Origin: Bacteroides sp.
GTDB taxonomy: Bacteria; Bacteroidota; Bacteroidia; Bacteroidales; Muribaculaceae
Assembly (NCBI GenBank): GCA_014802435.1
Contig: JAAVCG010000006.1
Location: forward strand, 62,001-126,000
Length of the DNA: 64,000 nt
Reading direction: 5' to 3'
Below, piece by piece: positions 34,854 through 52,340 of this stretch. Under the pieces are notes generated by a model. That model saw only the letters and a list, made by a program, of their open reading frames with translations, was not told the origin of the DNA and did not search any database. The translations under genes and the position numbers were made by a program. The number at the start of each line of letters is the position of its first letter. Within the stretch, counting starts at the first letter, position 1.

Positions 34854-34945
34854 CCTCAAAAACCCGCAACAAAACCCCTCAAAAACCCGCAACAAAATCC
34901 CTCAAAAACCCGCAACAAAACGCCTCAAAAACCCGCAACAGCTTG
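34854..34945 (+). repeat. 23-bp tandem array (four units) upstream of a DUF4143 ATPase gene
   Basis: Units starting CCTCAAAAACCCGCAACA begin at 34854, 34877, 34900 and 34923 (period 23). The last unit ends in CTTG (34942-34945), the predicted -33 box of the ATPase gene. No spacer sequences are present, so it is not a CRISPR array. Confidence 0.92.
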
Positions 34946-34973
34946 TTTTTCTCAAAAATTTTTTTTAACTTTG
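34942..34973 (+). promoter_or_regulatory. Predicted promoter of the ATPase gene at 34996
   Basis: CTTG (34942-34945), 20 bp, TAACTTTG (34966-34973). The ATG follows 22 nt later. The -33 box is the end of the last tandem unit. Confidence 0.7.
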
Positions 34974-34995
34974 CGACGTTATTAAGAGCTTTTTT

Positions 34996-36288
34996 ATGAA
35001 ATACTTACATAGAATTGTTGACAAGCAGCTCAAGCAAAGATTGAGTTATATGGGAGCCGTCTTAATTGAGGGCCCGAAATGGTGTGGAAAAACTACTACT
35101 GCCGCACAGCAGGCCAAAAGTATACTCAGACTTCAAGACCCTGATATGAGAGAGGCCTATTTGGTGACGGCTCAGACTCGCCCTTCAAATCTTTTGCAAG
35201 GAGCAACTCCCAGGCTGATAGATGAATGGCAGGATGCTCCTATGATATGGGATGCGGTTCGCACTGTGGTTGATGAGCGAGGAGGAGAACCGGGCCAGTT
35301 TATTCTGACAGGAAGCAATTCAGTGGACGATAGCCTCATTATGCATAGTGGGACGGGACGCATTTCCCGGATGAAGATGTATCCGATGAGCCTTTATGAG
35401 TCCGGGGAGTCAACCGGAGCCATATCTCTGCTGAAATTGTTTGATAATCCATTGATGGATATTGACGGCATAACGTCTGAAATGGGTGTTAATGATCTGA
35501 TTCGCGCGGCATGTCGTGGCGGTTGGCCTGCATCGCTAAGGGTTGCGAATACTCCTGAGGCGTATAGGATTGCTCGAGATTATGTTGAGGGGGTTGTGAG
35601 AGCTGATGTTTCTAATATTGATGGTGTTCAGCGCGACCCGGCATTGGCATTGGCCATCATTAGAAGTTATGCGCGGAATCTGTCGACTTTGGTAAAGAAG
35701 TCGAATTTGTTAAAGGACGTCAATGCCATTACAGAGAGCTGTTCGGAGCGTACGTTTGATAGTTACGTCAAGGCTTTGACTCAGTTATTTGTTATTCAGG
35801 ATATATCAGCGTGGTCGCCGGCTGTCAGATCCTCTACGGTTATCCGTCGTACGCCTAAACGAGGACTTGTCGATCCGTCCATAGCAGTGGCAGCTCTTGG
35901 CTTATCGCCTCAAATGCTTGAAATGGACCTTAAGACGTTCGGTTTCATATTTGAATGTATGGCCATACGTGACCTTAGAGCTTATACTCAGGGCGTTTAT
36001 GGCGAAATATCGTATTATCATGACAGATATGACCTTGAGGCTGATGCTGTTCTTCATCTGGATGACGGGCGCTATGCGCTGATTGAGTTCAAGCTTGGAA
36101 GTGCTGAAATTGAACTGGGCGCAAAGCATCTGCTTGAGGTTAAGGAACTCGTGAAAAAGTATAACGAGAAAGAAGGTCAGATTAAACTTCGGGAGCCTGA
36201 CTTGCTGATGGTTATCACCGGGGGAAAAATGGCTTATCGTAGGCCGGATGGCGTTTTGATTGTTCCTCTGGCCTGCCTTAAGGATTAA
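34996..36288 (+). CDS. AAA+ ATPase with DUF4143 domain (locus 1)
   Basis: The 430-aa protein has Walker A GPKWCGKTT (residues 26-34), a Walker B-like PRLIDEWQ, an LTGSN sensor, and a C-terminal DUF4143 region with a PD-(D/E)XK-like pattern EADAVLHL and ALIEFKLG (E-x-K). Such proteins are common in Bacteroidales and archaea; their role is not established, with suggestions ranging from ATP-driven nucleases to defence or toxin-like functions. Codon use is AT-richer than in neighbouring core genes. It converges on the reverse cluster with a 4-nt overlap at 36285-36288. It is the first of three domain-level relatives in the window. Confidence 0.88.
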   Translation: MKYLHRIVDKQLKQRLSYMGAVLIEGPKWCGKTTTAAQQAKSILRLQDPDMREAYLVTAQTRPSNLLQGATPRLIDEWQDAPMIWDAVRTVVDERGGEPGQFILTGSNSVDDSLIMHSGTGRISRMKMYPMSLYESGESTGAISLLKLFDNPLMDIDGITSEMGVNDLIRAACRGGWPASLRVANTPEAYRIARDYVEGVVRADVSNIDGVQRDPALALAIIRSYARNLSTLVKKSNLLKDVNAITESCSERTFDSYVKALTQLFVIQDISAWSPAVRSSTVIRRTPKRGLVDPSIAVAALGLSPQMLEMDLKTFGFIFECMAIRDLRAYTQGVYGEISYYHDRYDLEADAVLHLDDGRYALIEFKLGSAEIELGAKHLLEVKELVKKYNEKEGQIKLREPDLLMVITGGKMAYRRPDGVLIVPLACLKD

Positions 36289-36656
36289 CCGTTAGCATCC
36301 GGGGAAAGGTCGGTTAATTGCGGTTTTCTGTGCCGGTCAAAGTGGCGCAGAATCTGATGAACGGTTGAAATGTTTTGTTGATGTAGCGCCCTGTACTGAT
36401 TGAAGAAATCATACGGTTCGCTGAGGGCAGGAATCAGTGAACTGAAATACTTATGAAGTCGGCGCAGATTTGCTTCGGTTTTTGCAAATTTGTTTGTAAA
36501 TGCAGTTAGCTCATCGTCTGATGAGAATCTGCCTGGGTTTGAGAAGTTATTGAATTCATCCTGAGCTTGCTTGCTGCGTTTGATTGTGGCCTGTATATGA
36601 GCATATATACTGCCGCAAGCAATTAGCAGGAAGCAGATTATGAGGAATGGGGTCAT
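36285..36656 (-). CDS. Small hypothetical membrane-anchored protein
   Basis: The 123-aa protein has one N-terminal membrane helix (PFLIICFLLIACGSIYAHI) and a helical, charged remainder. No family is recognised. Its start overlaps the stop of the polyprenyl synthase gene by 4 nt, and its end overlaps the ATPase gene's stop on the other strand, so it is the last gene of the pta-ackA-ddh-surE cluster. Confidence 0.65.
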   Translation of the reverse strand: MTPFLIICFLLIACGSIYAHIQATIKRSKQAQDEFNNFSNPGRFSSDDELTAFTNKFAKTEANLRRLHKYFSSLIPALSEPYDFFNQYRALHQQNISTVHQILRHFDRHRKPQLTDLSPDANG

Positions 36657-37657
36657 TTGTGGCGGGCGAGGATGTGGGTGAGGAGGGCGAGGAGGTTGGT
36701 GCGGGCGGGGGAGTCCGGGAAGGCGGCGGTTAGGGTTTGGGCGGCGGTTTGGGCGAGGGTTTGGATTGTTTGCCGGGCGCGGGTGATGCCGTTGTTTGCG
36801 ATGGCGAAGTCGATGAGTTCGCGGATTTGGTCAGGGGTGAGGCTGTCGCGGGTGACGAGCGCGCGCATCCGGTCTCGTCCTTCAACCGTGGGGTCAAGGA
36901 GCACGCTGAGCAGCGGGAGAGTCACTTTTCCTTCGCGGAGGTCATTGCCGGTGGGTTTGCCGATGGTGTCGGCCTCGGTGGAGTAGTCAAAAATATCGTC
37001 GGTGATTTGGAAGCAGAGGCCCAGGAGGCGGGCAAATTCGCGCAGTGCGGCCAGTCGGGGGTCATCTGTCTGACATCCGGCGGCGAATGCTCCCATCTCA
37101 GCGCAGGCAATGAAGAGGGAGGCTGTCTTGCGCTCGATGGTGCGCATATAAGCGTCGATTGAGAGGAGATGATAGCGGGCGTTATAGATTTGGTCGAGTT
37201 CGCCCATTGCGAGCTGTCGGCCTAAGGATGCGAGTGAGCCGATGATTCGGATGTCGCCGGTTTCGTTGGCGAGTTGGAGTGAGGTTGAGGTGAAGAAGTC
37301 GCCGACGAGTACGGCGATGTGGTTGTCCCAGATTCCGTTGACGGTCGGTTCGTTGCGTCGCATTTTTGATTCGTCGACGACGTCGTCGTGAATCAGAGAG
37401 GCGTTATGAAGCATCTCGACGGCGGCAGCCGTTGAGATGACATGGTGAGAGGTTTGAGCGCTGAAGAGTTGGGCGCAGAGAATTACCGTAATGGGGCGTA
37501 TTTGCTTGCCTTTTTGCCGCAGGTATTCCGCAATGATGCCGTTCATCATTTCGTTTGATGATTGGAGCGACAACATTATGCGCTGATTGAGTTGCGTCAG
37601 TTGAGGCGCAATGGCTTTGGCGATGGAATCAAGTGAGGCGGCGGATTGTTGAGGCAT
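36653..37657 (-). CDS. Polyprenyl diphosphate synthase
   Basis: The 334-aa trans-isoprenyl synthase carries both Asp-rich motifs: DDVVD at residues 91-95 and DDIFD near residue 215, plus GKQIRP for substrate binding. It extends allylic diphosphates with IPP, most likely to the menaquinone side chain (octaprenyl/solanesyl type), in keeping with menG in this window. The chain length cannot be read from sequence with certainty. It lies 26 nt after surE. Confidence 0.92.
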   Translation of the reverse strand: MPQQSAASLDSIAKAIAPQLTQLNQRIMLSLQSSNEMMNGIIAEYLRQKGKQIRPITVILCAQLFSAQTSHHVISTAAAVEMLHNASLIHDDVVDESKMRRNEPTVNGIWDNHIAVLVGDFFTSTSLQLANETGDIRIIGSLASLGRQLAMGELDQIYNARYHLLSIDAYMRTIERKTASLFIACAEMGAFAAGCQTDDPRLAALREFARLLGLCFQITDDIFDYSTEADTIGKPTGNDLREGKVTLPLLSVLLDPTVEGRDRMRALVTRDSLTPDQIRELIDFAIANNGITRARQTIQTLAQTAAQTLTAAFPDSPARTNLLALLTHILARHK

Positions 37658-37683
37658 CTATTCGGTGGAATTGGGGGGTGGGA

Positions 37684-38445
37684 TTATTCAAAAGAGGATT
37701 TGAGCGAGGGGATGATGTCAAAGGCTGTTTGGTCCGGGCGGATGGGGGTGATTGTGACATAGTCGCGACGGAGCCAGTAGTTATCGCCTGCGGGGTCATC
37801 CGGGGCGAGGTCGACGTATTGGCCGGTGAGCCAGTAGAATTTGCGGCCGAAGGGGTCTTGATAGTCAGCATATTCTTCGGTCCAGCGTCCTTTGCCGCAG
37901 GTTGTGACTTTAATGCCCTTGGGTTGCACTCCGGCGGGCATATTGACGTTGAGGCAGACTCCTTCAGGGAGTCCGGAGTTGATGACGCGGCTGATAATCT
38001 GCTCCATAGCGGGGCCGCAGGGAGTAAAGTCGGCGTCAGGGCGGAAGTCAAGGAGTGAGAATCCGATGGCGTTGATGCCAATCATGCAAGCTTCCATAGC
38101 GGCGCCCATGGTTCCGGAATAGATATTTGAGTTTCCGGAGTTAGAGCCGTGGTTTACGCCGCTGAGCATCAGGTCAGGGGCGGCGGGAAGGATTGCGTGC
38201 ATGGCGAGTTTGACGCAGTCAACGGGAGTGCCGGTAACTGACAGCATCCGGGCACCGTTATAGTCCGGATGCGGGATGATGGAGAGGGGAGAGTTGACGG
38301 TGATTGCGGAGCTTTGGCCGGAGCGGGGGCCGTCAGGGGCCACGGCATAGATCTCGGCCTCGGGCGCCACGGCGCGCATCCTGTCAATCAGGAAGCGCAG
38401 ACCCGAGGCTTGGATACCGTCATCATTAGAGATTAGGATGATCAT
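37684..38445 (-). CDS. surE: 5'/3'-nucleotidase SurE
   Basis: The 253-aa phosphatase dephosphorylates nucleoside monophosphates. Family signatures are ILISNDDGIQASG (metal-binding D8-D9) and LSGVNHGSNSG. The start overlaps the ddh stop by 4 nt. Length is typical. Confidence 0.95.
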   Translation of the reverse strand: MIILISNDDGIQASGLRFLIDRMRAVAPEAEIYAVAPDGPRSGQSSAITVNSPLSIIPHPDYNGARMLSVTGTPVDCVKLAMHAILPAAPDLMLSGVNHGSNSGNSNIYSGTMGAAMEACMIGINAIGFSLLDFRPDADFTPCGPAMEQIISRVINSGLPEGVCLNVNMPAGVQPKGIKVTTCGKGRWTEEYADYQDPFGRKFYWLTGQYVDLAPDDPAGDNYWLRRDYVTITPIRPDQTAFDIIPSLKSSFE

Positions 38446-39332
38446 ACGAGGTGGGCAATCAGTTCTTCACGGTTGCCGGGAAGGAGGTCAATTACGGGGA
38501 TTTCAACCATGGTGTAGGCTCCGGGGGCCTGGCGCATGGAGGCTCTGGCGGCGCCGACGAGAATCTGGGCGGTCAGGGCCGGATTATTGATGGCCATGTT
38601 GAATTCCAGGCGCTGGGAGGGGGTGCGTCCGGAGGTTCCTTTGCGGGTCATGTTGACGCCATGGCCCATATCGCGGACGGCATCAACCGAGGGAACTTCA
38701 AAGACGTGGGTCTCGTCAGAGGCAAAGTAGGGGTCGGCCTTTACTGCGGCGGCCACTTCTTCAATCTTGGCTCCGGGGAGGAGTTCGACGTAGACCATGC
38801 GGCGATGGATTCCGGTGCCCAGGGGGATTGTCATCGAGATGGCATCCTTTACTCCTTCCTTGGAGCGGACACAGACGCTATGGCCCATGCTCATTCCGGG
38901 GCCGAAGTTGGTGTAGGTCACTCCCTTGGGCGCAGCGGCTTCCATCAGGGCACGGACAATGGAGTCACTTCCGGGGTCCCATCCGGCGGCAATGATTGCC
39001 ACACGGCCATTCATGCGGGCTACGTCGCTGAGATGGTGACGCAGGTCGACGATGCTTGAGTGGATATCAAAGGAGTCAACGGTGTTGATTCCGGCGGCAA
39101 GATATTTTGCGGCGTTTTCTTCAACATGGCGAGTTGGAGTGGCAAGGATGGCAACGTCGACATGGCCCAGCTCGGCAATGTCAGTAACCACCTTGTATTG
39201 GCTCAGTTCGGCAGGGACTTCGGCCACGGAGCGGCGGACGATGCCGGCCAGTTCCATGTCAGGAGCCTCAAGGACTGATTCGAGGACGTAACGGCCAATG
39301 TTGCCGTAGCCTACGATTGCAACTTTAATCAT
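38442..39332 (-). CDS. ddh: meso-Diaminopimelate dehydrogenase
   Basis: The 296-aa NADPH-dependent enzyme makes meso-diaminopimelate from tetrahydrodipicolinate in one step, feeding lysine and peptidoglycan synthesis. The Rossmann motif GYGNIGRYV is at the N-terminus; further typical parts are ILATPTRHVEENA, AGWDPGSDSI and FGPGMSMGHSV. It lies 8 nt after ackA in a run of five overlapping or close genes. Confidence 0.94.
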   Translation of the reverse strand: MIKVAIVGYGNIGRYVLESVLEAPDMELAGIVRRSVAEVPAELSQYKVVTDIAELGHVDVAILATPTRHVEENAAKYLAAGINTVDSFDIHSSIVDLRHHLSDVARMNGRVAIIAAGWDPGSDSIVRALMEAAAPKGVTYTNFGPGMSMGHSVCVRSKEGVKDAISMTIPLGTGIHRRMVYVELLPGAKIEEVAAAVKADPYFASDETHVFEVPSVDAVRDMGHGVNMTRKGTSGRTPSQRLEFNMAINNPALTAQILVGAARASMRQAPGAYTMVEIPVIDLLPGNREELIAHLV

Positions 39333-39340
39333 ATTTCTTC

Positions 39341-40543: not shown

Positions 40544-40569
40544 TTAATGTCAGGTAGTGTTTTGGGGTA

Positions 40570-41565: not shown

Positions 41566-41592
41566 TACTTGAATTATTTGTTTTGTTTGGTG

Positions 41593-41600
41593 CAAATTTA
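41593..41600 (-). promoter_or_regulatory. -7 box of the pta-ackA unit
   Basis: Reverse TAAATTTG, 27 nt before the pta ATG. Candidate -33 boxes on the reverse strand are at nonstandard spacings of 15 or 23 bp. Confidence 0.5.
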
Positions 41601-41710
41601 CGTATTTTTTCTGAACAAAACCGCAAAAAATCTTCCCAAATTTGAAATTTCCCTTTTTTAGACTGAAATCCCCCCATCTTTTGCCTCTCTCTCATCTGCC
41701 GGCGCAGAGG

Positions 41711-41745
41711 ATAAAAAGGCCGCCAACCCATCGCGGGCTGACGGC
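41711..41745 (-). terminator. Rho-independent terminator
   Basis: On the reverse strand an 11-bp stem with two G-U pairs (41735-41745 with 41719-41729) is followed by TTTTTAT. It ends the 1048-aa secreted-protein gene before the pta promoter region. Confidence 0.8.
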
Positions 41746-41806
41746 TCACATAGTCCAAAATAAACTTTAAAGTTATATAATAAAAGTTTTCTTCACTTGG
41801 AAAAAT

Positions 41807-44800
41807 TTACTTGACCAGGACTTTACGGCCATTGATGATGTTGAAGCCCTTGGCGGGAGCGGCAAGTTTGCGTCCTTGCAGGTCATAAACCTCGGTAGTG
41901 GCGCCGGCGGTCACTACGGCGTCAATGCCGGTGGTGTTAACCGTAGCAGAGCGGACTACTCCCTTGAAGTTTGATTCAGCATGGTAGGCGTAGTATTCAA
42001 TATTGCCGTTGGGAACGCGGATTGTGTGTACGTTAGTTCCTTCCTGATGTTCGGCAAGGGTATAGCCGGAGTGGTCAACGGCGGCAGCTCGGCGCTGAGG
42101 AGCGGCGGGGGAAGCTGTCGTAGTGTGCTTATAGTAAACGTCATAGTCATTGGCGGGAGTGGTGAGGGTGATGATGAGCATCGTCGGGTCTGATTCGTCG
42201 ATAGCCGTGGTGTAACCCTCATTGTCCTGCAAGGGTACCATCGTGTTGGGGTTGATGGTGTAGATGGGGAAGAGCTTCTCTTCGCCGTCGGCAAGGGCGG
42301 GAACCTCGTCTAAGTAAGCCTTGAATCCGGGAATATACTGAGCGTTCGGGTCAAACTCTTCATAGACGCGGAAGTTATTGTTAGTAGAGGCATGGAGGGT
42401 GAAGATCTCCTTGTTGTCATCGTTGGCAAACGCGCAGAAGCCGGCTTTGAGGTTGCCTTTGATTTCGCCGTTTGATTCCCGGTCAAAGACTACGGGAAGA
42501 TTGAGGTAGACAATATGGCTGCGGTTTTCATCGTCAGCGCCCTGCTCGAGGTTGGGGTTATTTTCCACGTCAACTTTGCCGTCATAGAAAATCAGGGCGG
42601 GCTGATTGGCGGGGATGATTACTTTACCTTCGTCGTTAGGTTCGATAGGAGTTGCGAGAACGTGGTTAACGTCGTTCTTGCCGGTATAGTCAGCGTCGTC
42701 AAATTCGCCGGTGTAAGCGGTGGTATGAGTGTATTTAGCGGGAATTTCCAGAGCTACGGGAGAATAAACGGAGGTCCAGCCTTCGTTGTCGTTCTGACCG
42801 AATACGTTATAGAAAGTGAGCGGAAGTTCTTCAACGAGTTCAACATACCATTGATGTTCGTCGGTCGCTGAGTTGCCGGAAACGTTAACGGCGCCGGGGG
42901 AATTGCTGACATTGCCTCCGCCATGCAGGTGACGGTGAGCGCCGTTGACAGATGAGCAGAGGATACATCCGCCCAGGTGCTGGTGTTGAATCTTGAAGAC
43001 GTGGCCGGCATTGTCAGCGTCCGTGAGCATCGGAACCCAGTTTGAGGTGGTGCTGTCAAAGTCAGGAATGACGAGTCCGGTTTCAAAGCTGACGAGAGTA
43101 TATTCGCCATTGGTTGTGCCGTCAAGATAGAAAATGGTGTTGGGATAAGTTGCCTTATCTTCGTCAACCAGTTTCATCAGGTTGTAGGTCTTTCCGTTTT
43201 GTTCAAGCTGGCCCCAAGCGTCAGACGACAGGTATTTTCCGCTTTTTTTGTTCTTGAAGCGATAGAACTTTCCGGGTTCGATTTCCTTGAACTGGAGGTT
43301 GCGGAAGTCAATGTCTTCAACGGCTTGCAGGGCAACGGATTCTTCAATCTGCTGTCCGGCGTCAATCTGACTCTGCAGCTGGCGTGCATTGGCCAGTTTT
43401 TCAAGGAAGTCGTTGGTTTCATTATTGAATCGGCCGGGCTGCCAACCAATCAGGTCCTCGCCGCCCCAGTAGCCGATACGGCGCAACGCGGCGGCAATGT
43501 TTTTGGCATTATAGTCTTCAACGGCCTTGAGGAACTCCTCATTTTCAGCTGAGGGGATGGTGTTTTCGGGGAGCCCGAGAGCCTCCATATCGCGAGCTTC
43601 CAGGGGGAAAATCTGGAGGATGCAGTTTTCGTCAGGGTTGGAGGTATGGTAGATTGAGAAGTAACCGTTGTTGGCATAGTCATTTACGTAGGCATCTGTA
43701 GTGCCATCAATCTTGAGATAGAACTGATTGTCAGTTGAGTTATGGACAAGATTGAAGTAAGTAACCTCTTCGCCATAGACTGCTTTTGCGTTGTTATAGC
43801 TGCCCTGAGCGTTGGGGGTAAAGGATACGGCCCATTCGGGCTTGTAGAGGTTATGCAGCGAGAAGGTGTTTAACTTTTCTCCCGGCTTGAAGAACCAGAG
43901 ACGCTCGGGAATCAGACGGCTGAGTGTTTCGTTGCCGCCGATATTGTTGCGGATTTCTTCAGCGTCGAGCATATAGCGCAGAGCCGTAGGAGAATCGCCG
44001 GGCTTGAGGCTTATGCGGTAAACTATGTTTGCCTCGAAGTCATACTTCCAGTTGCCCGTAACGGTAAACTCCTTGTTAGTGGCTGAAACGATGAGGTCAG
44101 AGCCATTGACGGAAGAGACCGTAGCCTCTTCAATGCCGCCATATTCTTGAGCAAGTTCAAGAATGTAAGGCTCGGCACTCTGTCCTTCATAGGCTTGAAC
44201 CTCCAGGGTCATCCCAACTCCGTTCCAGTCAGGGAAATTAACCGTGATAGGAGTTGATTCCGAGGCCTTGACGGGATAGAAAACCACTTGGGCAGTTTGG
44301 TTGCCGGTAGTCATCTTCTGATAAGAGACGAAGGCGAAGCTTGCGCTTGAAACGGGGTCTTTTTCATTGTAGCTTTGCCAATAAACGGTATTAGAACCGT
44401 CGTTGGCAAACGTAGCATTCGTCATCTTAATAAGATAACGGTTATCCTTCAGGGGGTCATCGTCTTTCAAGATTGAGGCATCAGTCTTGTCGGCGACGGT
44501 GAATTGGCCGATTGTCAGCGGGCGGCCGCCGATAGCGCCGGTGCCGTCAGTGGCCTGAGCGTTGTGTTGGCCGGTGTTTGCACGTCCCTGAATTGAGATG
44601 TAGTGATTTGAATAGAGATTTTGAACGGTGAAATTGTCCGTTCCGTCAACAAACTCGAGCCTGAAAATCTTGTTTGCGTTTGCTTCGCCGGCGGGGCTCA
44701 TTGCGGTAACGCCGTCATAATTCCAGTGGAACTGTTCGCTTGACGTGTTGGCCGAATAGAGGAAACCGGAGCGGGGAGCCTCTTGCTTGTTAAACTGGAG

Positions 44801-44953
44801 GCAATAAAGGGCACCCGGGTGAGCTTTCATCTTGGAGATGACCTCAGCGGCGGTTCCGCTTAAGGGTTCTCCATCCTGAAAATAGCGGACATCGGCCCAG
44901 GCGGTGGAGACGCACATGAGGGTCGCCGCACTTAAGAGTAAATGCTTTTTCAT
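41807..44953 (-). CDS. Large secreted protein with YDLQGRK tail
   Basis: The 1048-aa protein has a signal peptide (MKKHLLLSAATLMCVSTAWA). Parts resemble carbohydrate-binding beta-trefoil/ricin-type repeats, for example NLYSNHYISIQGRAN near residue 115 and GKFYRFKNKKSGKYLSSDAWG near 595, the latter ending EHQWYVELV. The C-terminal part reads as Ig-like. The tail has YDLQGRKL and ends IINGRKVLVK. No hydrolase active site was recognised. A glycan-binding surface protein is the best guess. A reverse TAAATTTG at 45031-45038 may be its -7 box, 77 nt upstream. Confidence 0.82.
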   Translation of the reverse strand: MKKHLLLSAATLMCVSTAWADVRYFQDGEPLSGTAAEVISKMKAHPGALYCLQFNKQEAPRSGFLYSANTSSEQFHWNYDGVTAMSPAGEANANKIFRLEFVDGTDNFTVQNLYSNHYISIQGRANTGQHNAQATDGTGAIGGRPLTIGQFTVADKTDASILKDDDPLKDNRYLIKMTNATFANDGSNTVYWQSYNEKDPVSSASFAFVSYQKMTTGNQTAQVVFYPVKASESTPITVNFPDWNGVGMTLEVQAYEGQSAEPYILELAQEYGGIEEATVSSVNGSDLIVSATNKEFTVTGNWKYDFEANIVYRISLKPGDSPTALRYMLDAEEIRNNIGGNETLSRLIPERLWFFKPGEKLNTFSLHNLYKPEWAVSFTPNAQGSYNNAKAVYGEEVTYFNLVHNSTDNQFYLKIDGTTDAYVNDYANNGYFSIYHTSNPDENCILQIFPLEARDMEALGLPENTIPSAENEEFLKAVEDYNAKNIAAALRRIGYWGGEDLIGWQPGRFNNETNDFLEKLANARQLQSQIDAGQQIEESVALQAVEDIDFRNLQFKEIEPGKFYRFKNKKSGKYLSSDAWGQLEQNGKTYNLMKLVDEDKATYPNTIFYLDGTTNGEYTLVSFETGLVIPDFDSTTSNWVPMLTDADNAGHVFKIQHQHLGGCILCSSVNGAHRHLHGGGNVSNSPGAVNVSGNSATDEHQWYVELVEELPLTFYNVFGQNDNEGWTSVYSPVALEIPAKYTHTTAYTGEFDDADYTGKNDVNHVLATPIEPNDEGKVIIPANQPALIFYDGKVDVENNPNLEQGADDENRSHIVYLNLPVVFDRESNGEIKGNLKAGFCAFANDDNKEIFTLHASTNNNFRVYEEFDPNAQYIPGFKAYLDEVPALADGEEKLFPIYTINPNTMVPLQDNEGYTTAIDESDPTMLIITLTTPANDYDVYYKHTTTASPAAPQRRAAAVDHSGYTLAEHQEGTNVHTIRVPNGNIEYYAYHAESNFKGVVRSATVNTTGIDAVVTAGATTEVYDLQGRKLAAPAKGFNIINGRKVLVK

Positions 44954-45030
44954 TGTGTTTTTTTGATGGATTGTATTTTTTTGATGGATTGATAATTATT
45001 TGCAAAATTATGAAAAAAATCTCACATCCG

Positions 45031-45284: not shown

Positions 45285-45314
45285 GGCGGCGGATCGGAAT
45301 CCGCCTTTCCATAG
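45285..45314. repeat. Terminal arm of the interspersed repeat family
   Basis: The 30 bp at 45285-45314 match the right terminal arm of the 50745-51004 element exactly and stop at the same CCATAG end. Sequence to the left (about 45150-45284) contains a GC-rich inverted stretch around GGCGCCCTCGCCACGGTGGCGCG and a segment (45212-45240) shared with 2925-2950. The gene-free stretch 44954-45490 holds this repeat, the 33-bp array and two predicted promoters. Confidence 0.75.
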
Positions 45315-45369
45315 TTTTATGTCGCATATTTCAATCTGCGAGTCGCTGAACAGCCCGAAAAAAAGCACA

Positions 45370-45468
45370 TTCCTTTGGATTTTCCCAGAAAACGGGCAAT
45401 TATTCCTTTGGATTTTCTCAGAAAACGGGCAATTATTCCTTTGGATTTTCTCAGAAAATGATTATCTT
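45370..45468 (+). repeat. 33-bp tandem array (three units) forming a promoter
   Basis: Units beginning TTCCTTTGGATTTTC start at 45370, 45403 and 45436 (exact 33-bp period). Each carries a TTTG; the last unit's TTTG (45440-45443) is the predicted -33 box, and the last unit diverges after CAGAAAATG into the -7 box. Confidence 0.93.
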
Positions 45469-45470
45469 TG
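45440..45470 (+). promoter_or_regulatory. Predicted promoter of the ATPase gene at 45491
   Basis: TTTG (45440-45443), 19 bp, TATCTTTG (45463-45470); the ATG is 20 nt downstream. The -33 box is inside the third tandem unit. Confidence 0.78.
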
Positions 45471-45490
45471 CAGAAAATAATTGAAAGAAT

Positions 45491-46888
45491 ATGGCATATC
45501 TTGCAAGAAACATAGATGGTGAACTTCTAAAATGGAAGGATTCATCGCGTCGAAAGCCTCTCATTGTACGTGGCGCCAGACAGGTTGGTAAGTCTCGGGC
45601 AATAAGACACTTGGGCGAAAAATTTAAATACTACCTCGAGATTAATCTTGAGGAGGAGAAGGATTTGTGTAAACTATTTGAGGAAATCACAGATGTTAAA
45701 GTCCTCAGTCAGCGTCTTGGGGCGATACATAATGTGCAGGTTATTCCCGGAGAGACACTCCTGTTTATAGATGAGATTCAGAACTGCCCGGCTGCCTTGA
45801 AAAGTTTGTGGTTTTTCAAGGAAAATTATCCAGAGCTGCATGTCGTTGCAGCCGGGTCGCTTTTGGAGTTTACGCTGAATGAGATGCCATCATACGGCGT
45901 TGGACGTGTCAGGTCTGTGTTTATGTATCCGATGTCGTTCAAGGAATTTCTGATGGCACGGGGTAAAGATGTGTGGTTGCAGGAAATAGCAAATGCAAAC
46001 TGGACCAATCCGGTTGAGGAAAGACTTCATTCACGTCTTGTATCGGAATTGAGGTCGTTCCTGATGGTAGGAGGTATGCCCGCGTGTGTTTCCGCATGGG
46101 TTGAAACTCAGGATTATTCTGCTTGTCAGGATGAGCAGAACGATATACAGCAAAGCTATTATGATGATTTTGCCAAATATGCAAAAACGGTTGACCCGCG
46201 TCTGCTCCGCAACACGTTGGCAGCCGTAGCAAGTCAATCCGGCCATAAGTTTGTTTATAGTAAAGTCGAGGGGGGATATCCGTCAGAGAAAGTCAAGGAA
46301 GCCCTGAGGCTTCTTTGTGATGCCGGGCTTATAATACCGGTGCAGATGTCAGCCGCCAATGGTCTACCATTAGGGGCGCAAGTGAATCCCAAGTTTGTCA
46401 GATATGATTATATTGATACGGGTTTGTTGCTGCGTGTGTTAGCAATGAATTATGATGATGACAAGGAATTGACCAGACTGATACTCGCCGGAGAAGCACC
46501 TGATCTGGTAAACAAAGGAATAGTGGCAGAGCTGACCGTCGGACTTGAGTTAATTAAATCTTCCAACCCACAGAGTAAGTATGATCTCTTTTATTGGGAA
46601 AACCTGGATAGAAACGCAACTTCTGAGGTTGAATATGTTATTGCAAAAAATGCGACGTTGCTACCCATAGAGGTGAAGGCCGGGGTGTCCGGGAAGATGA
46701 AGAGCCTGCGACTTTTCATGAACAAGAAAGGGATTACTGCCGGCATCCGCACTTCGTTAGAAAATTTCGGTCTGCTGGAAGTTTCAGACTCTGATAGTGA
46801 CGGCCAATCTATCCGGCGTGACATCGGAATTCTCCCGATTTATGCGGTGTGGCGGCTTGCGGATTTGTCGCTTCCGGGGTCGGTGTAG
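45491..46888 (+). CDS. AAA+ ATPase with DUF4143 domain (locus 2)
   Basis: The 465-aa protein is the classic form of the family: Walker A GARQVGKS (residues 28-35), Walker B LLFIDEIQNCP, sensor VVAAGSLLEF, the conserved MYPMSFKEFL, and a C-terminal DUF4143 nuclease-like region with EYVIAKNATLLPIEVKAG (E-x-K). The role is unknown. It differs enough from the genes at 34996 and 52213 that recent duplication is unlikely. It stands alone, AT-rich, behind a minisatellite promoter and a fragment of the interspersed repeat. Confidence 0.92.
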   Translation: MAYLARNIDGELLKWKDSSRRKPLIVRGARQVGKSRAIRHLGEKFKYYLEINLEEEKDLCKLFEEITDVKVLSQRLGAIHNVQVIPGETLLFIDEIQNCPAALKSLWFFKENYPELHVVAAGSLLEFTLNEMPSYGVGRVRSVFMYPMSFKEFLMARGKDVWLQEIANANWTNPVEERLHSRLVSELRSFLMVGGMPACVSAWVETQDYSACQDEQNDIQQSYYDDFAKYAKTVDPRLLRNTLAAVASQSGHKFVYSKVEGGYPSEKVKEALRLLCDAGLIIPVQMSAANGLPLGAQVNPKFVRYDYIDTGLLLRVLAMNYDDDKELTRLILAGEAPDLVNKGIVAELTVGLELIKSSNPQSKYDLFYWENLDRNATSEVEYVIAKNATLLPIEVKAGVSGKMKSLRLFMNKKGITAGIRTSLENFGLLEVSDSDSDGQSIRRDIGILPIYAVWRLADLSLPGSV

Positions 46889-46929
46889 GTCCGGTTAAAG
46901 TGTTCCTTCGATGGTCTAATTTGTAAAAG

Positions 46930-46952
46930 TGTTCCTTCGAAGGAACATTTTT
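46930..46952 (+). terminator. Terminator-like perfect palindrome
   Basis: TGTTCCTTCGAAGGAACA (46930-46947) is an 18-bp perfect palindrome followed by TTTTTA. A partial copy of its left half, TGTTCCTTCGA, occurs at 46901. It lies 42 nt after the ATPase stop. Confidence 0.65.
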
Positions 46953-47006
46953 AGGTTGAGTTTGGGTTTGGAAATAAGATTCCTTTGTGGGTCTTCGGGT
47001 TTTTGT

Positions 47007-47045
47007 ATTGAAAATTCGGGAGAAATTGCGTAACTTTGCGCTATG
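47007..47045 (+). promoter_or_regulatory. Leaderless-type promoter of manA
   Basis: ATTG (47007-47010), 20 bp, TAACTTTG (47031-47038), then only four bases before the ATG at 47043. The expected transcription start falls on the start codon. Confidence 0.7.
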
Positions 47046-47921
47046 ATATTTAAGTTTGAACCGATATGGGTCCCGAAGCCTTGGGGCGGAGAGTCGTGGC
47101 TGATCAGTGCAGTCGGTGACCGTCTTTCGGTCGTTGCCGAGGGCGACGATGCCGGATTGACCTTGCCTCAGCTGATTGAGCGTTATGGCGCCTCACTGGT
47201 GGGCGAGCGCATCTATCATGAGTTCAACGGCAAGTTTCCATTGCTGTTGAAAATCATCGTGGCCGATGAGGATTTGTCGGTTCAGGTCCATCCGAATGAT
47301 GCTGCCGCCAGTCGCCTCGAGGGGCTGGGAGCCAAGGGAAAGACTGAAATGTGGTATGCCACGGAGACTGCCCCGGGGTCGACTATTCTTTCCGGGTTGC
47401 GCCCGGGAGTTACCCGTCAGCAATATCTTGAGGCGGAGGGCACGGACACAATCATGGAGTTGCTTAACCGTTATGACGTTCATGAAGATGACGTGTTTTT
47501 CCTGCCGGCGGGGCGAGTTCATGCCATCGGGGCAGGCTGCCGCATGATTGAGATTCAGCAGAGCAGCGATATCACTTATCGCATCTATGATTACGGGCGC
47601 CCGCGCGAGTTGCATCTTGAAAAGGCGCGGGAGGCAATCACCTGGCCGCCGCGAGGCGATTACCGGGTGCCGATGGACCATACGGCGGAGCGCACTAACT
47701 TAGTGGTCTGCAATAGTTTTGTGGTTGACCGATATATATTGACCGAGCCGACGAGAGTCAGGGGCGTTGACGGTTCTTTTTCCATCCTGACGATGCTTAG
47801 CGGCGAAGTTGATGCCGACGGGGTCAACGTGCGGGCCGGCGAATCGGTTCTTGTGAGCCCTGAGGGCGCGTTTATCACCCCTCTCTGCGGCAAGGCGATT
47901 ATTTTGCTGACGTCGGCTTAA
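47043..47921 (+). CDS. manA: Mannose-6-phosphate isomerase, class I type
   Basis: The 292-aa zinc enzyme interconverts fructose-6-P and mannose-6-P. Visible motifs are WVPKPWGGESW at the start, the zinc ligands in SVQVHPND (Gln, His), KTEMWY (Glu) and GRVHAIGAG (His). It is a compact bacterial form, shorter than E. coli ManA (391 aa). Its last 23 bases overlap the end of menG on the other strand. Confidence 0.93.
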   Translation: MIFKFEPIWVPKPWGGESWLISAVGDRLSVVAEGDDAGLTLPQLIERYGASLVGERIYHEFNGKFPLLLKIIVADEDLSVQVHPNDAAASRLEGLGAKGKTEMWYATETAPGSTILSGLRPGVTRQQYLEAEGTDTIMELLNRYDVHEDDVFFLPAGRVHAIGAGCRMIEIQQSSDITYRIYDYGRPRELHLEKAREAITWPPRGDYRVPMDHTAERTNLVVCNSFVVDRYILTEPTRVRGVDGSFSILTMLSGEVDADGVNVRAGESVLVSPEGAFITPLCGKAIILLTSA

Positions 47922-48651
47922 CTGCAGTGTAGATTGTGCAGACCCCGAAGGTCAACGGGCGGAAGGCTGCGTCCGTGAATCCGGCGGCTTCCATCAGGGC
48001 AAGCATTTTTTCGCGCTGTGGCACTGCCTCAATGCTTTCCGGCAGATAAGAATAAGCGCGGGTGTCTTTGCTTACGAGTCGTCCCACCAATGGGATAACT
48101 CCGCGAGTATAAAGCCGATAGAGCGGCTTGACTATGGGGTTGACGGGAGTTGAAAGTTCAATGATGCAGACCATCCCTCCGGGGCGGATTACGCGGTTCA
48201 TTTCTTTGAGTCCGGCGGGAATGTCGGCAAAGTTTCTGACTCCGTAGGCCACTGTCAGCGCGTCAAATTCGTCATCCTGAATGGGGAGGTCCAGACAGTT
48301 TGCCGCCTCAAGGGTTATGCGGTCAGTGAGCCCGGCTTTGAGGATTTTTTCGCGGCCGACGGCAATCATTCCCTCCGAGAGGTCAACTCCCGTAATCATG
48401 CAGTCAGGAATAGCGCGGGCCAGCGTCAGGGCCAGGTCGCCGGTGCCCGTAGCCACATCGAGAATCTTCTTCGGGACGGTGCGGGCCACCATTTTGACGG
48501 CTTTTTTGCGCCAGATTTTGTCAATGCCCAGGGTCATGGCGCGGTTCATGAAATCATAAGCGGGAGCAATGGAGTCAAACATTTGCTCCACTTGCTCCCC
48601 CTTGGATAATTCAGTCCCGTAGGGCGTGATTTTTTCAACCTCCTCGTTCAT
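47899..48651 (-). CDS. menG: Demethylmenaquinone methyltransferase
   Basis: The 250-aa UbiE/MenG-type SAM-dependent enzyme does the last step of menaquinone synthesis. Motifs: [16 protein letters not shown], the SAM loop [11 protein letters not shown], and TVAYGVRNF. The start overlaps the purC stop by 4 nt. Its 3' end overlaps manA by 23 bp (convergent). Confidence 0.95.
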
Positions 48652-49598
48652 TGAGCGAGTTGGGTCAGGCAGTCTGTAACGTTAACGGCAATGCGGTCTT
48701 CGAGGTTCGTTTCAGGTGCGGGCACGAAGGTTTTGCCGGTAATGTGTTCGTAGAGTTCGATATAGCGCTTGCTGACGCTGTCAACGAATTCGGGAGTCAT
48801 TTCGGGGACCTGCTGTCCGGCCTTGCCCATGAATCCGCGTTCAATGAGCCATTGGCGCACGAATTCCTTGCTGAGCTGACGCTGAGGTTCGCCCTTTTCA
48901 AAGCGTTCCTGATAGCCGTCGGCATAGAAATAGCGGCTTGAGTCAGGAGTATGGATTTCGTCAATGAGGATAACCTTGCCGTCAAGGAGGCCGAATTCAT
49001 ATTTGGTGTCGACGAGAATCAGGCCCTTATCGGCGGCCATCTGGGAGCCGCGTTCAAAGAGGGCGCGGGTGTAGGCCTCGACCTGAGCATAATCCTCAGC
49101 GGAGACGAGTCCTTGGGCAATGATTTCTTCGCGCGAGATGTTTTCGTCGTGTCCGGCATCAGCCTTGGTAGTGGGGGTGATGATGGGCTCGGGGAATTTC
49201 TCGTTTTCGCGCATTCCGTCAGGGAGTTTAACGCCGCAAATCTCACGACATCCGGCGGCATATTCGCGCCAGGCGCTTCCGGTCAGGTAGCCGCGGATAA
49301 TCATTTCTACGCGCAGACCTTCGGCTCGGCGGCCTACGGTCACCATCGGGTCAGGCGACGCCAGCTTCCAGTTGGGGACAATGTCGGCCGTGGCGTCAAG
49401 GAAATATTCGGCAATCTGGTTGAGCACCTGGCCTTTATAAGGGATACCCTCGGGGAGAACAACGTCGAAAGCCGAGATGCGGTCAGTAGCAATCATGACC
49501 AGCAGGTCAGGGTTGACCGAGTAGACGTCGCGGACTTTGCCGTGGTAAACGTTAGTTTGTCCGGGGAAATGGAAGTCGGTGGTAAGTAATGCGGGCAT
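48648..49598 (-). CDS. purC: Phosphoribosylaminoimidazole-succinocarboxamide synthase
   Basis: The 316-aa enzyme joins CAIR and aspartate in purine synthesis. It is the longer form of SAICAR synthetase with [35 protein letters not shown] and DTKYEFG. Placed 21 nt after phoH and overlapping menG. Confidence 0.96.
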
Positions 49599-49619
49599 TG
49601 GTTATTTTGGTTAAAGGGG

Positions 49620-50588
49620 TTAATTTTCAGGTTCAGAGGGGCTTTCAGAGTGCTCCTTGTCATATTTTTCGTAGGCCTCGACAATGCGTTGCACGAGCTT
49701 GGCGCGAACAATGTCTTTCTTGTCGAATTCCACTCGGCCAACACCGTCAACGTTGCGCAGGACGTTCAGGGCGCGGATGAGTCCGGAGGCCGTTGAGCGC
49801 GGGAGGTCAATCTGAGTGACGTCGCCGGTGATCACCATCTTGGCGTTCATGCCCAGTCGGGTCAGGAACATCTTAATCTGATGAGTAGTAGTGTTCTGCG
49901 CTTCGTCGAGCACTATGATGGCGTCAGAGAGCGTGCGGCCGCGCATAAAGGCCAGCGGGGCAATCTGAATCACCTTTGACTCCATGTATTCCTTGAGCTT
50001 GGCCGCGGGAATCATGTCCTCCAACGCATCATAAAGCGGCTGAAGATACGGGTCAATCTTATCCTTCATGTCGCCGGGAAGGAATCCGAGTTTTTCGCCG
50101 GCCTCAACCGCCGGGCGGCTCAGGATAATCTTGCGCACTTCTCTATTTTTCAGGGCTCTGACGGCCAGGGCGATGGCAATGTAAGTCTTGCCCGTGCCGG
50201 CCGGGCCGAGGGCAAAAGTGAGGTCATTTTTCAGGAAGGTGTCAACCAGCTCCTTCTGATGCTGGGTGCGCGCCTGAATGGGCTTGCCGTTGATGCCGTA
50301 AATTATTGCCTCGTCGGGCTTTAAATCTGAGGGCTGTTTGCCTTGGAGAATGTCGAGGATTGATTCCTCCGTCAGCTTATTATACTTTATGCAGTGCTGC
50401 TCAAGCTCATGAATAGCCTTTTCAAAACGCTCTGTTTCAGCGTCTTCCCCAATCACCTTGATGACGGAACCGCGCGCGGCGATTCTCAGTTTGGGGTGTA
50501 AATTCTTAATCAGCTGCAAGTTGCAGTTGTTCACCCCATAGAAGCTAACCGGATCAACTCCGTCAATAATTATTATTCTTTCAATCAT
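49620..50588 (-). CDS. PhoH-like ATPase
   Basis: The 322-aa protein has Walker A GPAGTGKTYIA (around residue 132), a Walker B FIVLDEAQN-type segment (IIVLDEAQNTTTHQIKMFLTR), and a final conserved GVGRVEFDKKDIVR. PhoH/YbeZ proteins are linked to RNA metabolism and ribosome maturation, often together with YbeY, which is not in the window. First gene of phoH-purC-menG with a leaderless-type promoter. Confidence 0.93.
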   Translation of the reverse strand: MIERIIIIDGVDPVSFYGVNNCNLQLIKNLHPKLRIAARGSVIKVIGEDAETERFEKAIHELEQHCIKYNKLTEESILDILQGKQPSDLKPDEAIIYGINGKPIQARTQHQKELVDTFLKNDLTFALGPAGTGKTYIAIALAVRALKNREVRKIILSRPAVEAGEKLGFLPGDMKDKIDPYLQPLYDALEDMIPAAKLKEYMESKVIQIAPLAFMRGRTLSDAIIVLDEAQNTTTHQIKMFLTRLGMNAKMVITGDVTQIDLPRSTASGLIRALNVLRNVDGVGRVEFDKKDIVRAKLVQRIVEAYEKYDKEHSESPSEPEN

Positions 50589-50593
50589 ATGTG

Positions 50594-50625
50594 CAAATTT
50601 ACGAAAAAAAAGTCATCCCTCCAAA
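50594..50625 (-). promoter_or_regulatory. Leaderless-type promoter of phoH
   Basis: On the reverse strand TTTG (50622-50625), 20 bp, TAAATTTG (50594-50601), five bases, then the ATG at 50588. Both boxes match the consensus. Confidence 0.78.
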
Positions 50626-50744
50626 CAAAAATTTTATTAATCATACCAAATAAAACTTGAAATTTTGCGATTTTATTTGCTATGATTAACAAAATTCGCC
50701 CTCCCCGGCAATTTAGCGCAAGCCACGAAGCCCGGACGGACACC

Positions 50745-51004
50745 CTATGGAAAGGCGGATTCCGATCCGCCGCCACCGTCTATGCAGGACGTTGAGGCTC
50801 GCGTAGCGGGTCATAAGGGCCTGTTAATGAATCGGGAAGTCTATCTTGTGAGCTCCGTGGGAACGACATATCTGTCGCAGCTATGCGGCTCTGTTGTTGG
50901 TTACGTTCTCGCAAATACACGCCCTGGCAGACGTGACTAAGTTCTGGCGACTGCGCTACGGACTATTTGACGGTGGCGGCGGATCGGAATCCGCCTTTCC
51001 ATAG
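50745..51004. mobile_element. MITE-like element with 33-bp perfect inverted termini
   Basis: The 33 bases at 50745-50777 (starting CTATGGAAAGGCGG) are the exact reverse complement of 50972-51004 (ending CCGCCTTTCCATAG). The 260-bp element encodes no transposase. A 37-codon frame (50827-50940, MNREVYLVSSVGTTYLSQ...) lies inside. No flanking target duplication is visible. Related arms at 2751 and 45285 end at the same CTATGG/CCATAG border, which supports these as true ends. It occupies most of the gene-free stretch 50589-51022 and ends 18 nt past the ATPase gene stop. Confidence 0.75.
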
Positions 51005-51022
51005 GGGGAAGCCGGTAATTTT

Positions 51023-52213
51023 TTAGTAGAGGAAGCCGAAGAGCCAGAGGGGGATTTTGTTACCGATGCCGCAGTCTAACTCGTCGGCAGCGATGAAGCT
51101 GTCAGGGATATCCTTGATTTGGTCAAAACTTTTTCGTGCACCCCCAACTTCAAAGAGATAGCGGTTGTCAACAATCAAATCTCCCGCTTTAGGATACGCA
51201 ATATCATGATTCTCAGCCATCATTGCTGCAAAAAAGGTCTCCCGGACTTTTCCCGTGTCGGCATATCCCAAGGCGTAGAGAAGCGAGGAATTGTTAAACA
51301 AAACCTTTTGAGGTTTGGCCATGGAATTGGGGTTACGCTCAGATTTATAGTAAAGCAGGCGCAAAATTTGTGAGCGCTCCAGAAGTGATAGAATCTTGAT
51401 TAACTGGTTGGTAGACACATCTAACATCTCGGAGGTTCGTTTTGCATTGAGGGGCGATGGCGTTTGTGTCGCAATAATGGTCAGCAGATGTTTGGCCTTG
51501 AGGAGAGTTGCATATTCGATTTTTTCCACAGTGGGAATATCGTTGTCAATCACCGAAGAAATCATGTTGTTGACTCGAATCAAATAGTCTGTCTCCGTTT
51601 CTGTTGTGTAAAACGGATAGAAGCCATGTTTCAGATATTTGCGAAACTCAGGCAGTACATTGATTTCTTGTGAGATTCCTGAAGCGAGCGTTAAATGATT
51701 ATGCAGAATATCCGTAAGTTCAATTCGCTCAAAGCGTTTGCCTTGAAATTCCAGATATTGGCGGAATGAAAGTCCCGGGAGCGTATAAATCAGGGCACGG
51801 CGTGAAAGATCAGCCACTGAGTGATCAATCTCCAGCAGTGAGCTTCCGGTGAATACTACGTGGATGTCCGGAAAAAAATCATAGAGATTCTTTATTTGTC
51901 GTTCCCATTGGGGCAGGCGGTGAACTTCATCAATGAAAAGATGGGTTATTTCCTGTTTCGAGGCCATTTCTGCCAGGTCAATGAGGGAGTGGCTTGCGAA
52001 CCAAACGTCGTCAAGCGATACGTAGAGTGCTTTTTTTGGGTCAGGGAAGGCCAACTTAATGCGTTGTAGCATCATCGTTGTTTTCCCAACTCCACGTGCG
52101 CCTTTTATTCCAATCAACCTTGCATTCCATGAAATTGTATGGTATAAATCGCGAATAATCTCCGTGGAGGTCAGTCGAAGCAGTCGTAGATATAGTCTTT
52201 TTAAGGTATCCAT
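51023..52213 (-). CDS. AAA+ ATPase with DUF4143-like C-terminus (locus 3)
   Basis: The 396-aa protein has an N-terminal helix, Walker A GARGVGKTT (residues 38-46), Walker B HLFIDEVHRLPQWE, sensor VVFTGSSLLEI, the PGLSFRQYLEFQG block, a winged-helix-like middle (SEMLDVSTNQLIKILSLLERSQ) and a C-terminal DNRYLFEVGGARKS (an E-x-G variant in place of E-x-K). It resembles a different subfamily from the genes at 34996 and 45491. Function unknown. AT-rich compared with its neighbours. Confidence 0.88.
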   Translation of the reverse strand: MDTLKRLYLRLLRLTSTEIIRDLYHTISWNARLIGIKGARGVGKTTMMLQRIKLAFPDPKKALYVSLDDVWFASHSLIDLAEMASKQEITHLFIDEVHRLPQWERQIKNLYDFFPDIHVVFTGSSLLEIDHSVADLSRRALIYTLPGLSFRQYLEFQGKRFERIELTDILHNHLTLASGISQEINVLPEFRKYLKHGFYPFYTTETETDYLIRVNNMISSVIDNDIPTVEKIEYATLLKAKHLLTIIATQTPSPLNAKRTSEMLDVSTNQLIKILSLLERSQILRLLYYKSERNPNSMAKPQKVLFNNSSLLYALGYADTGKVRETFFAAMMAENHDIAYPKAGDLIVDNRYLFEVGGARKSFDQIKDIPDSFIAADELDCGIGNKIPLWLFGFLY

Positions 52214-52238
52214 GTTTTTGTAAATATTTATGAGAGTG

Positions 52239-52269
52239 CAAAGTTACAAAAAAAAATCATCTTTGCAAA
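52239..52269 (-). promoter_or_regulatory. Predicted promoter of the ATPase gene at 51023-52213
   Basis: On the reverse strand TTTG (52266-52269), 19 bp, TAACTTTG (52239-52246), then 25 nt to the ATG. The -33 box is inside the gene-proximal tandem unit and inside a palindrome. Confidence 0.72.
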
Positions 52270-52340
52270 GATGATTTTGAGAAAATGATTATTGCAGAGA
52301 TGATTTTGGGGGAATGATTATTGCAGAGATGACTTTTGTC
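52253..52340. repeat. 29-bp tandem array with an adjoining 26-bp palindrome
   Basis: Units starting TTGCA[AG]AGATGA begin at 52263, 52292 and 52321 (period 29; about 2.7 units). The first overlaps a 26-bp perfect palindrome (52253-52278, centre CTTTGCAAAG). The last unit runs into the end of prfA (stop at 52339). Confidence 0.9.

Follow-up and report, generated by a model that had tools for sequence, protein, structure and literature searches.

Tandem arrays upstream of DUF4143 ATPase genes are probable iteron-like operators matched to the encoded protein

A 64,000-nucleotide stretch of a Bacteroides sp. genome of the Muribaculaceae (assembly GCA_014802435.1, contig JAAVCG010000006.1, positions 62,001 to 126,000; termed the window) contains three genes for ATPases with a DUF4143 domain, each preceded by an array of direct tandem repeats (Table 1). 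Comparison of sequences makes it quite probable that these arrays are iteron-like operators, likely bound by the encoded STAND-type ATPase itself for autoregulation, most likely repression. In the clade of proteins with 23-base pair (bp) repeats the bases of the repeat change in step with one position of the protein, and thus the protein likely reads its own repeats.

The units of this clade (termed K23, which includes gene 1 of the window) fit one 23-bp frame, CnCAAAA-nnnnnn-AATnAAAnnC, with conserved flanks and a variable middle. Unit identity follows protein identity (Mantel rho 0.61, n = 86; 0 of 999 permutations as high). Covariation was analyzed in sets of 81–82 proteins, obtained by removing those with 95% or more identity, and overall protein identity was controlled for; residue numbers are those of the protein encoded at 34996–36288. 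Unit positions 7–12 covary best with residues 251–265, the top-ranked of 416 windows (n = 81; a value this high arises in 1 of 200 within-cluster shuffles). With position 14 added to 7–12, none of 200 within-cluster shuffles is as high (n = 81). The residue window coincides with the predicted third helix (251–263) of a winged helix. The other parts of the unit show no significant window: positions 0–6 pair best with residues 362–376 (23 of 200 shuffles equal), positions 13–19 with residues 275–289 (87 of 200), and positions 20–22 with residues 20–34 (54 of 200).

Among single columns, residues 252 (0.38) and 235 (0.30) stand out, the next value being 0.15. Background-corrected mutual information is highest for residue 252 with base 11 (z = 11.4) and base 12 (z = 10.2) and for residue 251 with base 9 (z = 7.9). 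These are followed by 235 with base 9 (5.6), 251 with base 8 (5.3), 282 with base 1 (5.3) and 234 with base 7 (5.0); lower-ranked pairs scatter across the protein. In the 82-protein set, P252 is found with A11 in 25 of 26 cases and with A12 in 26 of 26, and K252 with G11 in all 17. D252 goes with G12 (9 of 11), N252 with C12 (6 of 9) and S252 with T12 (4 of 5); T252 displays no clear base rule.

To control for kinship, a tree was built without residues 230–300 and path-disjoint pairs of proteins were taken from it. This tree has 97 of 106 aligned proteins; L181, L183, L186, L188 and L189 were removed (no convincing array or register), as were L193 (a duplicate) and L028, L004 and L209 (poor register). 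The 44 disjoint pairs compare residue 252 with bases 11–12: in 28 both are the same, in 16 both differ, and there are no exceptions (p = 2.4e-12). Residue 252 is the best of 278 columns in this comparison, and the next is 254 at 5.9e-6. Residue 235 with base 9 (p = 6e-6) and residue 234 with base 7 (p = 4e-5) also hold on disjoint pairs, and 251 with bases 8–9 is weak (p = 0.025). When close pairs are excluded, agreement is 34 of 37 at a distance of at least 0.1, 26 of 29 at 0.3 or more, and 19 of 20 at 0.5 or more, and residue 252 remains the best of 419 columns with these distance limits. Plasmid iterons are marked by phased direct repeats that correspond to the winged-helix protein of their own system; here covariation indicates such a match. 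The first-pass annotation of the window had described the units as unrelated; this description does not fit units that follow the protein.

The arrays are a property of the DUF4143 gene family. An array score was defined as a self-shift score in the 200 bp upstream plus 20 bp of the gene, with a threshold of 13 or more. Gene calls are open reading frames determined here, with starts at first ATGs, and at least one family member (L067|9) escaped the search profile. The genome of the window (2.48 Mb, 45 contigs) has 11 DUF4143 matches. All ten genes with upstream DNA have direct tandem arrays, each with its own unit (scores 20.5 to 56.5), and the eleventh is cut by a contig end. In the set formed by this genome and 12 related ones, the family is present in 12 genomes, with 1 to 29 matches each, and one (G004) has none; 90 of 107 profile matches were kept, those with less than 200 bp upstream or with repeated sequence being skipped. 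Other genes from the fetched stretches served as background, 776 in number after removal of 12 of 788 that contained part of a DUF4143 array.

The threshold is reached by 62 of the 90 DUF4143 genes and by 38 of the 776 other genes (Fisher p = 5e-46), and a score of 20 by 45 of 90 and 13 of 776, respectively. Periods of 22–24, 32–34 or 40–43 bp, a set picked after the foreground had been viewed, occur in 58 of 90 against 10 of 776. Equal frequency upstream of random genes had been named in the first-pass annotation as an outcome that would refute its interpretation. That comparison shows the arrays to be far commoner at DUF4143 genes, and the arrays, which lie beside the promoter, have the look of selected elements. 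One background match, L067|10 (MutL by reading of the sequence), lies head to head with L067|9, the site of a PF13635 match, and its array probably belongs to this foreground gene. PF09820 could not be used as a control family because it has no member in the window genome.

The repeat period follows the protein clade. The period classes are 23, 32–34 or about 40 bp, close to two, three and four turns of the helix (with 10.5 bp per turn, 23 bp make 2.2 turns). On a quick tree of 87 proteins, with labels that include low-scoring arrays and 15 of 87 rows unlabelled, the period label changes 9 times as against 21.3 times in shuffles (0 of 200 as low). Six clades, drawn from the tree after the labels had been viewed, cover 78 of the 90 genes. 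In K23, where most members have the Walker A sequence GxKxCGKT, 11 of 11 arrays are exactly 23 bp. Among arrays over threshold in the other clades, 22 of 24 in R33 are at 32–34 bp, 8 of 8 in U33, 4 of 4 in S32 and 4 of 5 in T32 at 32–33 bp, and 4 of 5 in Q40 at 40–41 bp. Unit sequences differ between clades and between paralogues, but the distance from unit to unit remains close to two, three or four turns. Such spacing is more readily explained by a protein that occupies one face of the helix again and again than by free slippage.

The same association extends to other phyla and to archaea. A scan of species genomes gave at least 590 relatives of the K23 proteins, and the best 80 (48%–75% identity) were kept. 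By record title 63 of these are from Bacteroidota and 17 are from Clostridia, other Firmicutes including Bacillales, Treponema, Deltaproteobacteria, Methanobrevibacter, Methanobacteriaceae, Methanomassiliicoccaceae and Euryarchaeota; the taxon names rest on binning, since most records are metagenome-assembled genomes. Two loci with less than 80 bp upstream were left out. Of the 78 scored, 68 have a best period of 23, three have 46 (twice 23), six are below threshold and one is obscured by N, next to which 23-bp units can be seen.

From the 17 genomes outside Bacteroidota, scores were obtained for 68 DUF4143 genes (30 loci and 40 regions of the archaeal record G318, part of the listed matches), 37 of which have an array over threshold. 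Other open reading frames of those stretches, which were not gene-called and partly share the same arrays, reach it in 25 of 418. Sorted by Walker A type, 15 of 19 K23-type genes outside Bacteroidota have arrays (13 at 23, one at 24 and one at 46 bp), as do 9 of 17 R33-type genes, all at 32–33 bp. For the Q40 type the count is 6 of 11 (four at 40, one at 42, one at 12), for S32 it is 2 of 6 (14 and 33), and for the remaining types 5 of 15 (three at 23, one at 39, one at 46). A search with the R33 alignment in 60 Bacteroidales genomes gave 59 genes, with a period of 33 in 30, 32 in 9, none in 16 and another period in 4. Without four genes of the first set, 37 of 55 are at 32–33 bp.

Arrays are also present on plasmids, i.e. 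Bacteroides uniformis pBUN1 (23 bp), Segatella copri (32 bp) and Criblamydia (32 bp). Ten plasmid copies of one DUF4143 gene (L272–L281) come from Bacteroides, Parabacteroides and Phocaeicola plasmids of 36–139 kb (rep_cluster_1702); in the nine of these records that are annotated, a helix-turn-helix (HTH) gene lies upstream in the opposite orientation. Of eight R33-type relatives from viral contigs, four (L286, L288, L289 and L292) are preceded by 33-bp repeats, with scores of 15.5 to 28; a search of viral contigs for the exact units of genes 1 and 2 gave no match. The record G318 (that of L166; loci L225–L264) is a 1.6-Mb Methanomassiliicoccaceae archaeal genome assembled from a metagenome, with 48 listed DUF4143 matches, a remarkable load for its size; at least two of the 48 are identical contig duplicates.

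The first-pass annotation had proposed that the arrays are slippage-prone minisatellites, selected convergently, that make expression of a defence or surface gene phase-variable. Copy number does vary, from about 2 to more than 8 units (e.g. 3 at L009 and at least 5 at L086), and unit copies are near-identical within many arrays. In comparisons between species, which use overlapping pairs and include arrays truncated by N or by the limits of the scanned window, array length differs by at least half a unit in 13 of 25 pairs with 85%–95% protein identity. At 95% identity or more, however, 1 of 16 pairs differs, and the ten plasmid copies show 0–2 differences over 250 bp upstream, though this gene has just two sites, exactly 66 bp (2 × 33) apart in L272, an arrangement missed by the tandem score. 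In phase-variable arrays, unit and period would be free of the encoded protein. Here the tree shuffles, the clade periods (23 bp in 11 of 11 K23 arrays and in 68 of 78 relatives) and the disjoint pairs tie both to it; the period follows the clade even across domains, and arrays occur in archaeal records, whose promoters differ. Slippage is thus rejected as the principal explanation and seems improbable, and co-evolution with the encoded protein is a better description than convergent selection.

All three window proteins have AAA_14 and DUF4143 domains above the Pfam cut-offs, and all match PADLOC models for PDC-S01 (best E-values 2.4e-57, 1.1e-129 and 5.2e-26). Gene 3 also has a sub-threshold ResIII match. 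PDC-S01 is described as a candidate defence system, the fourth most common across prokaryotes, and consists of a single gene in which an ATPase is joined to a PD-(D/E)XK-superfamily domain (PMC12988326); the accessible portions of the literature found on PDC-S01 give no account of its mechanism. Two structure models display a STAND/NLR fold, with the NTPase domain, helical domain and winged-helix domain of the STAND type. In the gene 1 protein the predicted winged helix consists of helices 215–227, 235–245 and 251–263 (AlphaFold2, predicted local distance difference test score 92), and the predicted winged HTH (wHTH) sits between the ATPase and the DUF4143 domain. The acidic-acidic-ExK motif of PD-(D/E)XK proteins is recognizable in the C-terminal domain: E379, E394 and K396 are invariant and D381 is present in at least 90% of 27 aligned proteins, and in a second alignment E348, D350, E364 and K366 are invariant in 11 proteins. 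By this motif the domain is a candidate nuclease.

Each ATPase would likely bind its own array through the predicted winged-helix domain. Neighbouring sites on one face of the helix may be bound cooperatively, and the bound protein would control its own promoter, most likely by repression; an ATP-driven change of state, or foreign DNA that captures the protein, would release it. Self-limitation to a low level would be fitting for an NLR-like ATPase whose PD-(D/E)XK-type domain could harm the cell, and with private sites for every copy up to dozens of paralogues could live together in one cell. The Bacteroidetes promoter consensus is TAnnTTTG at −7, with the TTTG of the −33 box starting 23 bp further upstream. 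A TAnnTTTG box lies 2–12 bp from the end of the array for 11 of 24 R33 genes and 6 of 8 U33 genes (no box found in 7 and 1, respectively). Repression is favoured because in these arrays the last unit covers the −33 region.

Several observations weigh against this interpretation. Gene 1, the member of the 23-bp clade in the window, encodes R252, for which no clear base rule is seen (n = 82), and residue 282 with base 1 does not reach significance in the test on disjoint pairs (p = 0.095). With close pairs excluded there are exceptions to the residue 252 relationship, 3 of 37 at a distance of at least 0.1, 3 of 29 at 0.3 or more and 1 of 20 at 0.5 or more. Two 23-bp arrays, L004 of this genome and L028, are a poor match to the register of the clade and were left out when the code was derived. 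The division of the unit into parts was chosen after its profile had been viewed. With the whole unit the best window is 246–265 in a smaller set but 361–375, outside the recognition helix, in a larger one. Covariation in the 33-bp class is suggestive only. An unregistered test (n = 41) places windows 85–103 first and 270–284 seventh; a registered test places windows starting at 248–259 of the L008 protein first, where the predicted helix is 265–277, with a measure that favours variable columns and best residue-base pairs that scatter. The predicted residue-to-base code is resolved only in the 23-bp clade. The period of array 3 in the window, 29 bp, is off the 32–33 bp of its T32 clade. Arrays above threshold are absent from 28 of the 90 first-set genes and from 31 of the 68 DUF4143 genes outside Bacteroidota. 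TT_RS11170 (L355:14854-16074), a Thermus DUF4143 gene taken as TT_P0211, has no direct array upstream. Finally, arrays of the 23-bp clade stop 6–41 bp short of the −7 box, on its upstream side (11 genes), where an activator could also act.

From this last position MalT-like activation gains some weight, i.e. positive autoregulation in which the triggered ATPase binds the phased sites upstream and switches its own gene on. The STAND fold of the structure models is compatible with it, and the fourth structure match is 8bob, titled "negative regulation of the maltose system", the chain of which we take to be MalT. A 6.6-fold increase of TT_P0211 with plasmid present in Ago+ cells has been reported (PMC4406477), but that gene is the one without an array. 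Since 33-bp arrays end so close to the box that the last unit lies over the −33 region, and no ligand or trigger is known, activation is considered rather unlikely compared with repression. The array and ATPase could otherwise form a selfish iteron module for replication, partition or transposition. The number of listed matches per genome, 0 to 48 (the latter with the contig duplicates), the occurrence on plasmids and in a few viral contigs, and a period of 23 that resembles plasmid iterons of 17–22 bp (PMC4980987) would be in accordance with this. However, the arrays adjoin the gene's own start, with no separate origin or element end, and no Rep, transposase or recombinase domain was found in the three window proteins by Pfam at E ≤ 0.001. 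Two pairs in G318 that resemble recent copies are identical over all shared sequence and are for that reason likely contig duplicates. The other G318 matches are related mainly in coding sequence (~70%–77% identity), with at least one of them, L244/L248, extending ~80 bp into the upstream array, and no element boundary was found in these paralogue comparisons. A selfish module is therefore given a small probability. A different, housekeeping regulator that binds all arrays would account for their location in promoters, where regulator sites usually are, and covariation is linkage, not contact. Against this, unit cores vary by gene and track the gene's own residue 252. In genome-wide searches that allowed up to 3 mismatches, all 4 matches of the array 1 unit and all 3 of the array 2 unit core are at their own arrays. 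A wider regulon is thus unlikely for genes 1 and 2, the two for which this was searched, and the housekeeping regulator is rejected as highly improbable.

Autoregulation by the encoded ATPase remains the preferred explanation, and a more specific form of it is offered tentatively, as a conjecture that is rather more likely wrong than right. The array may be an address: the STAND ATPase would be stored and licensed on the phased, private DNA word of its own gene, and foreign DNA or phage proteins would pull it off, freeing the nuclease and switching the gene on. If a short residue code in one winged helix is indeed in use, few self-addressed DNA-binding families of bacteria and archaea would be as widespread as these proteins. 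A simple class of winged-helix proteins that bear a code may thereby be added to those known. A private, self-matched array with a code would be a first handle on PDC-S01, since it names the DNA that each protein likely reads. Such a code would allow specificity to be predicted from sequence, and it offers a possible explanation for the coexistence of dozens of paralogues in a genome.

There are partial parallels in known systems. MalT is a STAND activator whose C-terminal LuxR-type HTH binds DNA, and it is not known to have a nuclease-type domain. The ATPases described here resemble MalT and other STAND regulators in their predicted action on repeated sites, but the predicted wHTH lies between the ATPase and DUF4143. 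PDC-S01 is the same protein family as the window genes (ATPase and PD-(D/E)XK-superfamily domain in a single gene), and the accessible parts of the literature found describe no promoter array, operator or recognition code. According to PMC4980987, the iterons of plasmid Rep proteins (RK2, F, R6K, pPS10) are 17–22 bp direct repeats bound by winged-helix domains, and a separation of two sites by half a helical turn abolishes cooperativity. The likeness is in direct repeats matched to a winged-helix protein, here predicted by covariation. Unlike Rep, the protein is a STAND ATPase with DUF4143 (Pfam gives no Rep family for the window genes), the period shifts by clade to 33 or 40 bp, and the array is beside the gene's own promoter. 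AbiEi, the antitoxin of the AbiE toxin-antitoxin defence system, binds inverted repeats in its own promoter (PMC7319586). This is also a defence-linked protein on repeats of its own promoter, but in the present case a predicted effector-type ATPase would bind rows of direct repeats. In geminiviruses, iterons upstream of a gene are matched to its own Rep and vary between relatives (PMC12548392); that Rep is unrelated and viral, its iterons are 5–6 nucleotides and their role is in replication.

Table 1. Positions of the arrays, predicted promoters and genes in the window (TRF, Tandem Repeats Finder).
Feature	Position	Strand	Description
Operator-like array 1	34854..34940	+	TRF: period 23, 3.8 copies, 95% matches; unit CCTCAAAAACCCGCAACAAAACC
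Predicted promoter, gene 1	34943..34973	+	−33 TTG 34943-34945; −7 TAACTTTG 34966-34973; read by eye from the general consensus
Gene 1, STAND-type ATPase AAA_14 + DUF4143, 23-bp clade (K23)	34996..36288	+	Predicted recognition helix, residues 251-263
Operator-like array 2	45369..45458	+	TRF: period 33, 2.7 copies, 98% matches; unit ATTCCTTTGGATTTTCTCAGAAAACGGGCAATT
Predicted promoter, gene 2	45440..45470	+	−33 TTTG 45440-45443 within last unit; −7 TATCTTTG 45463-45470; general consensus
Gene 2, STAND-type ATPase AAA_14 + DUF4143, 33-bp clade	45491..46888	+	
Operator-like array 3	52263..52338	-	TRF: period 29, 2.6 copies, 89% matches
Predicted promoter, gene 3	52239..52269	-	−33 TTTG 52269-52266 within last unit; −7 TAACTTTG 52246-52239; general consensus
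Gene 3, AAA_14 + DUF4143 ATPase, T32 clade	51023..52213	-	DUF4143 30.7 bits (Pfam cut-off 28.1); PADLOC PDC-S01

TRF places all three arrays where the first-pass annotation had reported them. The further statement that the gene-proximal unit contains or ends in the −33 box in every case is correct for genes 2 and 3; in gene 1 the TTG is just beyond the end of array 1. Array 3 is also fitted by TRF with periods of 14–15 bp, and its gene-proximal unit contains a perfect inverted repeat, AAATCATCTTTGCAAAGATGATTT. It starts immediately after the stop codon of the neighbouring RF-1/PCRF gene (52339–53460, assigned by Pfam). At L001, L010 and L011 the array likewise begins within a few bases of the upstream stop codon. 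At L009 (contig C41 of the window genome) the distal unit, read by eye, enters the end of an upstream uvrC-like gene, the stop codon of which is within the repeat.

Two loci outside the window display inverted repeats. TT_RS11170 has a short one, TGAATGACTATCATTCA, just before its start. Open reading frame 12 of L058 is truncated (112 amino acids) and has upstream a 54-bp two-copy repeat with the inverted repeat TGCGCTAACC...GTTAGCGCA; it is possibly a remnant of a related ATPase family.

Other short repeats are present in the window. Positions 7290–7402 contain adjoining arrays of a 7-bp unit, AAATACA (6.7 copies), and a 9-bp unit, ATAAAACTT (6.9 copies), ~20 bp before an open reading frame at 7424 that is apparently no DUF4143 gene, as far as examined. 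An 18-bp repeat (2.2 copies, 44952–44991) lies between the second DUF4143 gene and the reverse-strand open reading frame 41807–44953 (1048 amino acids; ricin-lectin match below threshold), directly at the start of the latter. About five copies of 9-bp repeats of the GTCTGACTT type are found at 22366–22418, between the divergent open reading frames 22004–22342 (reverse strand) and 22488–23258 (forward strand).

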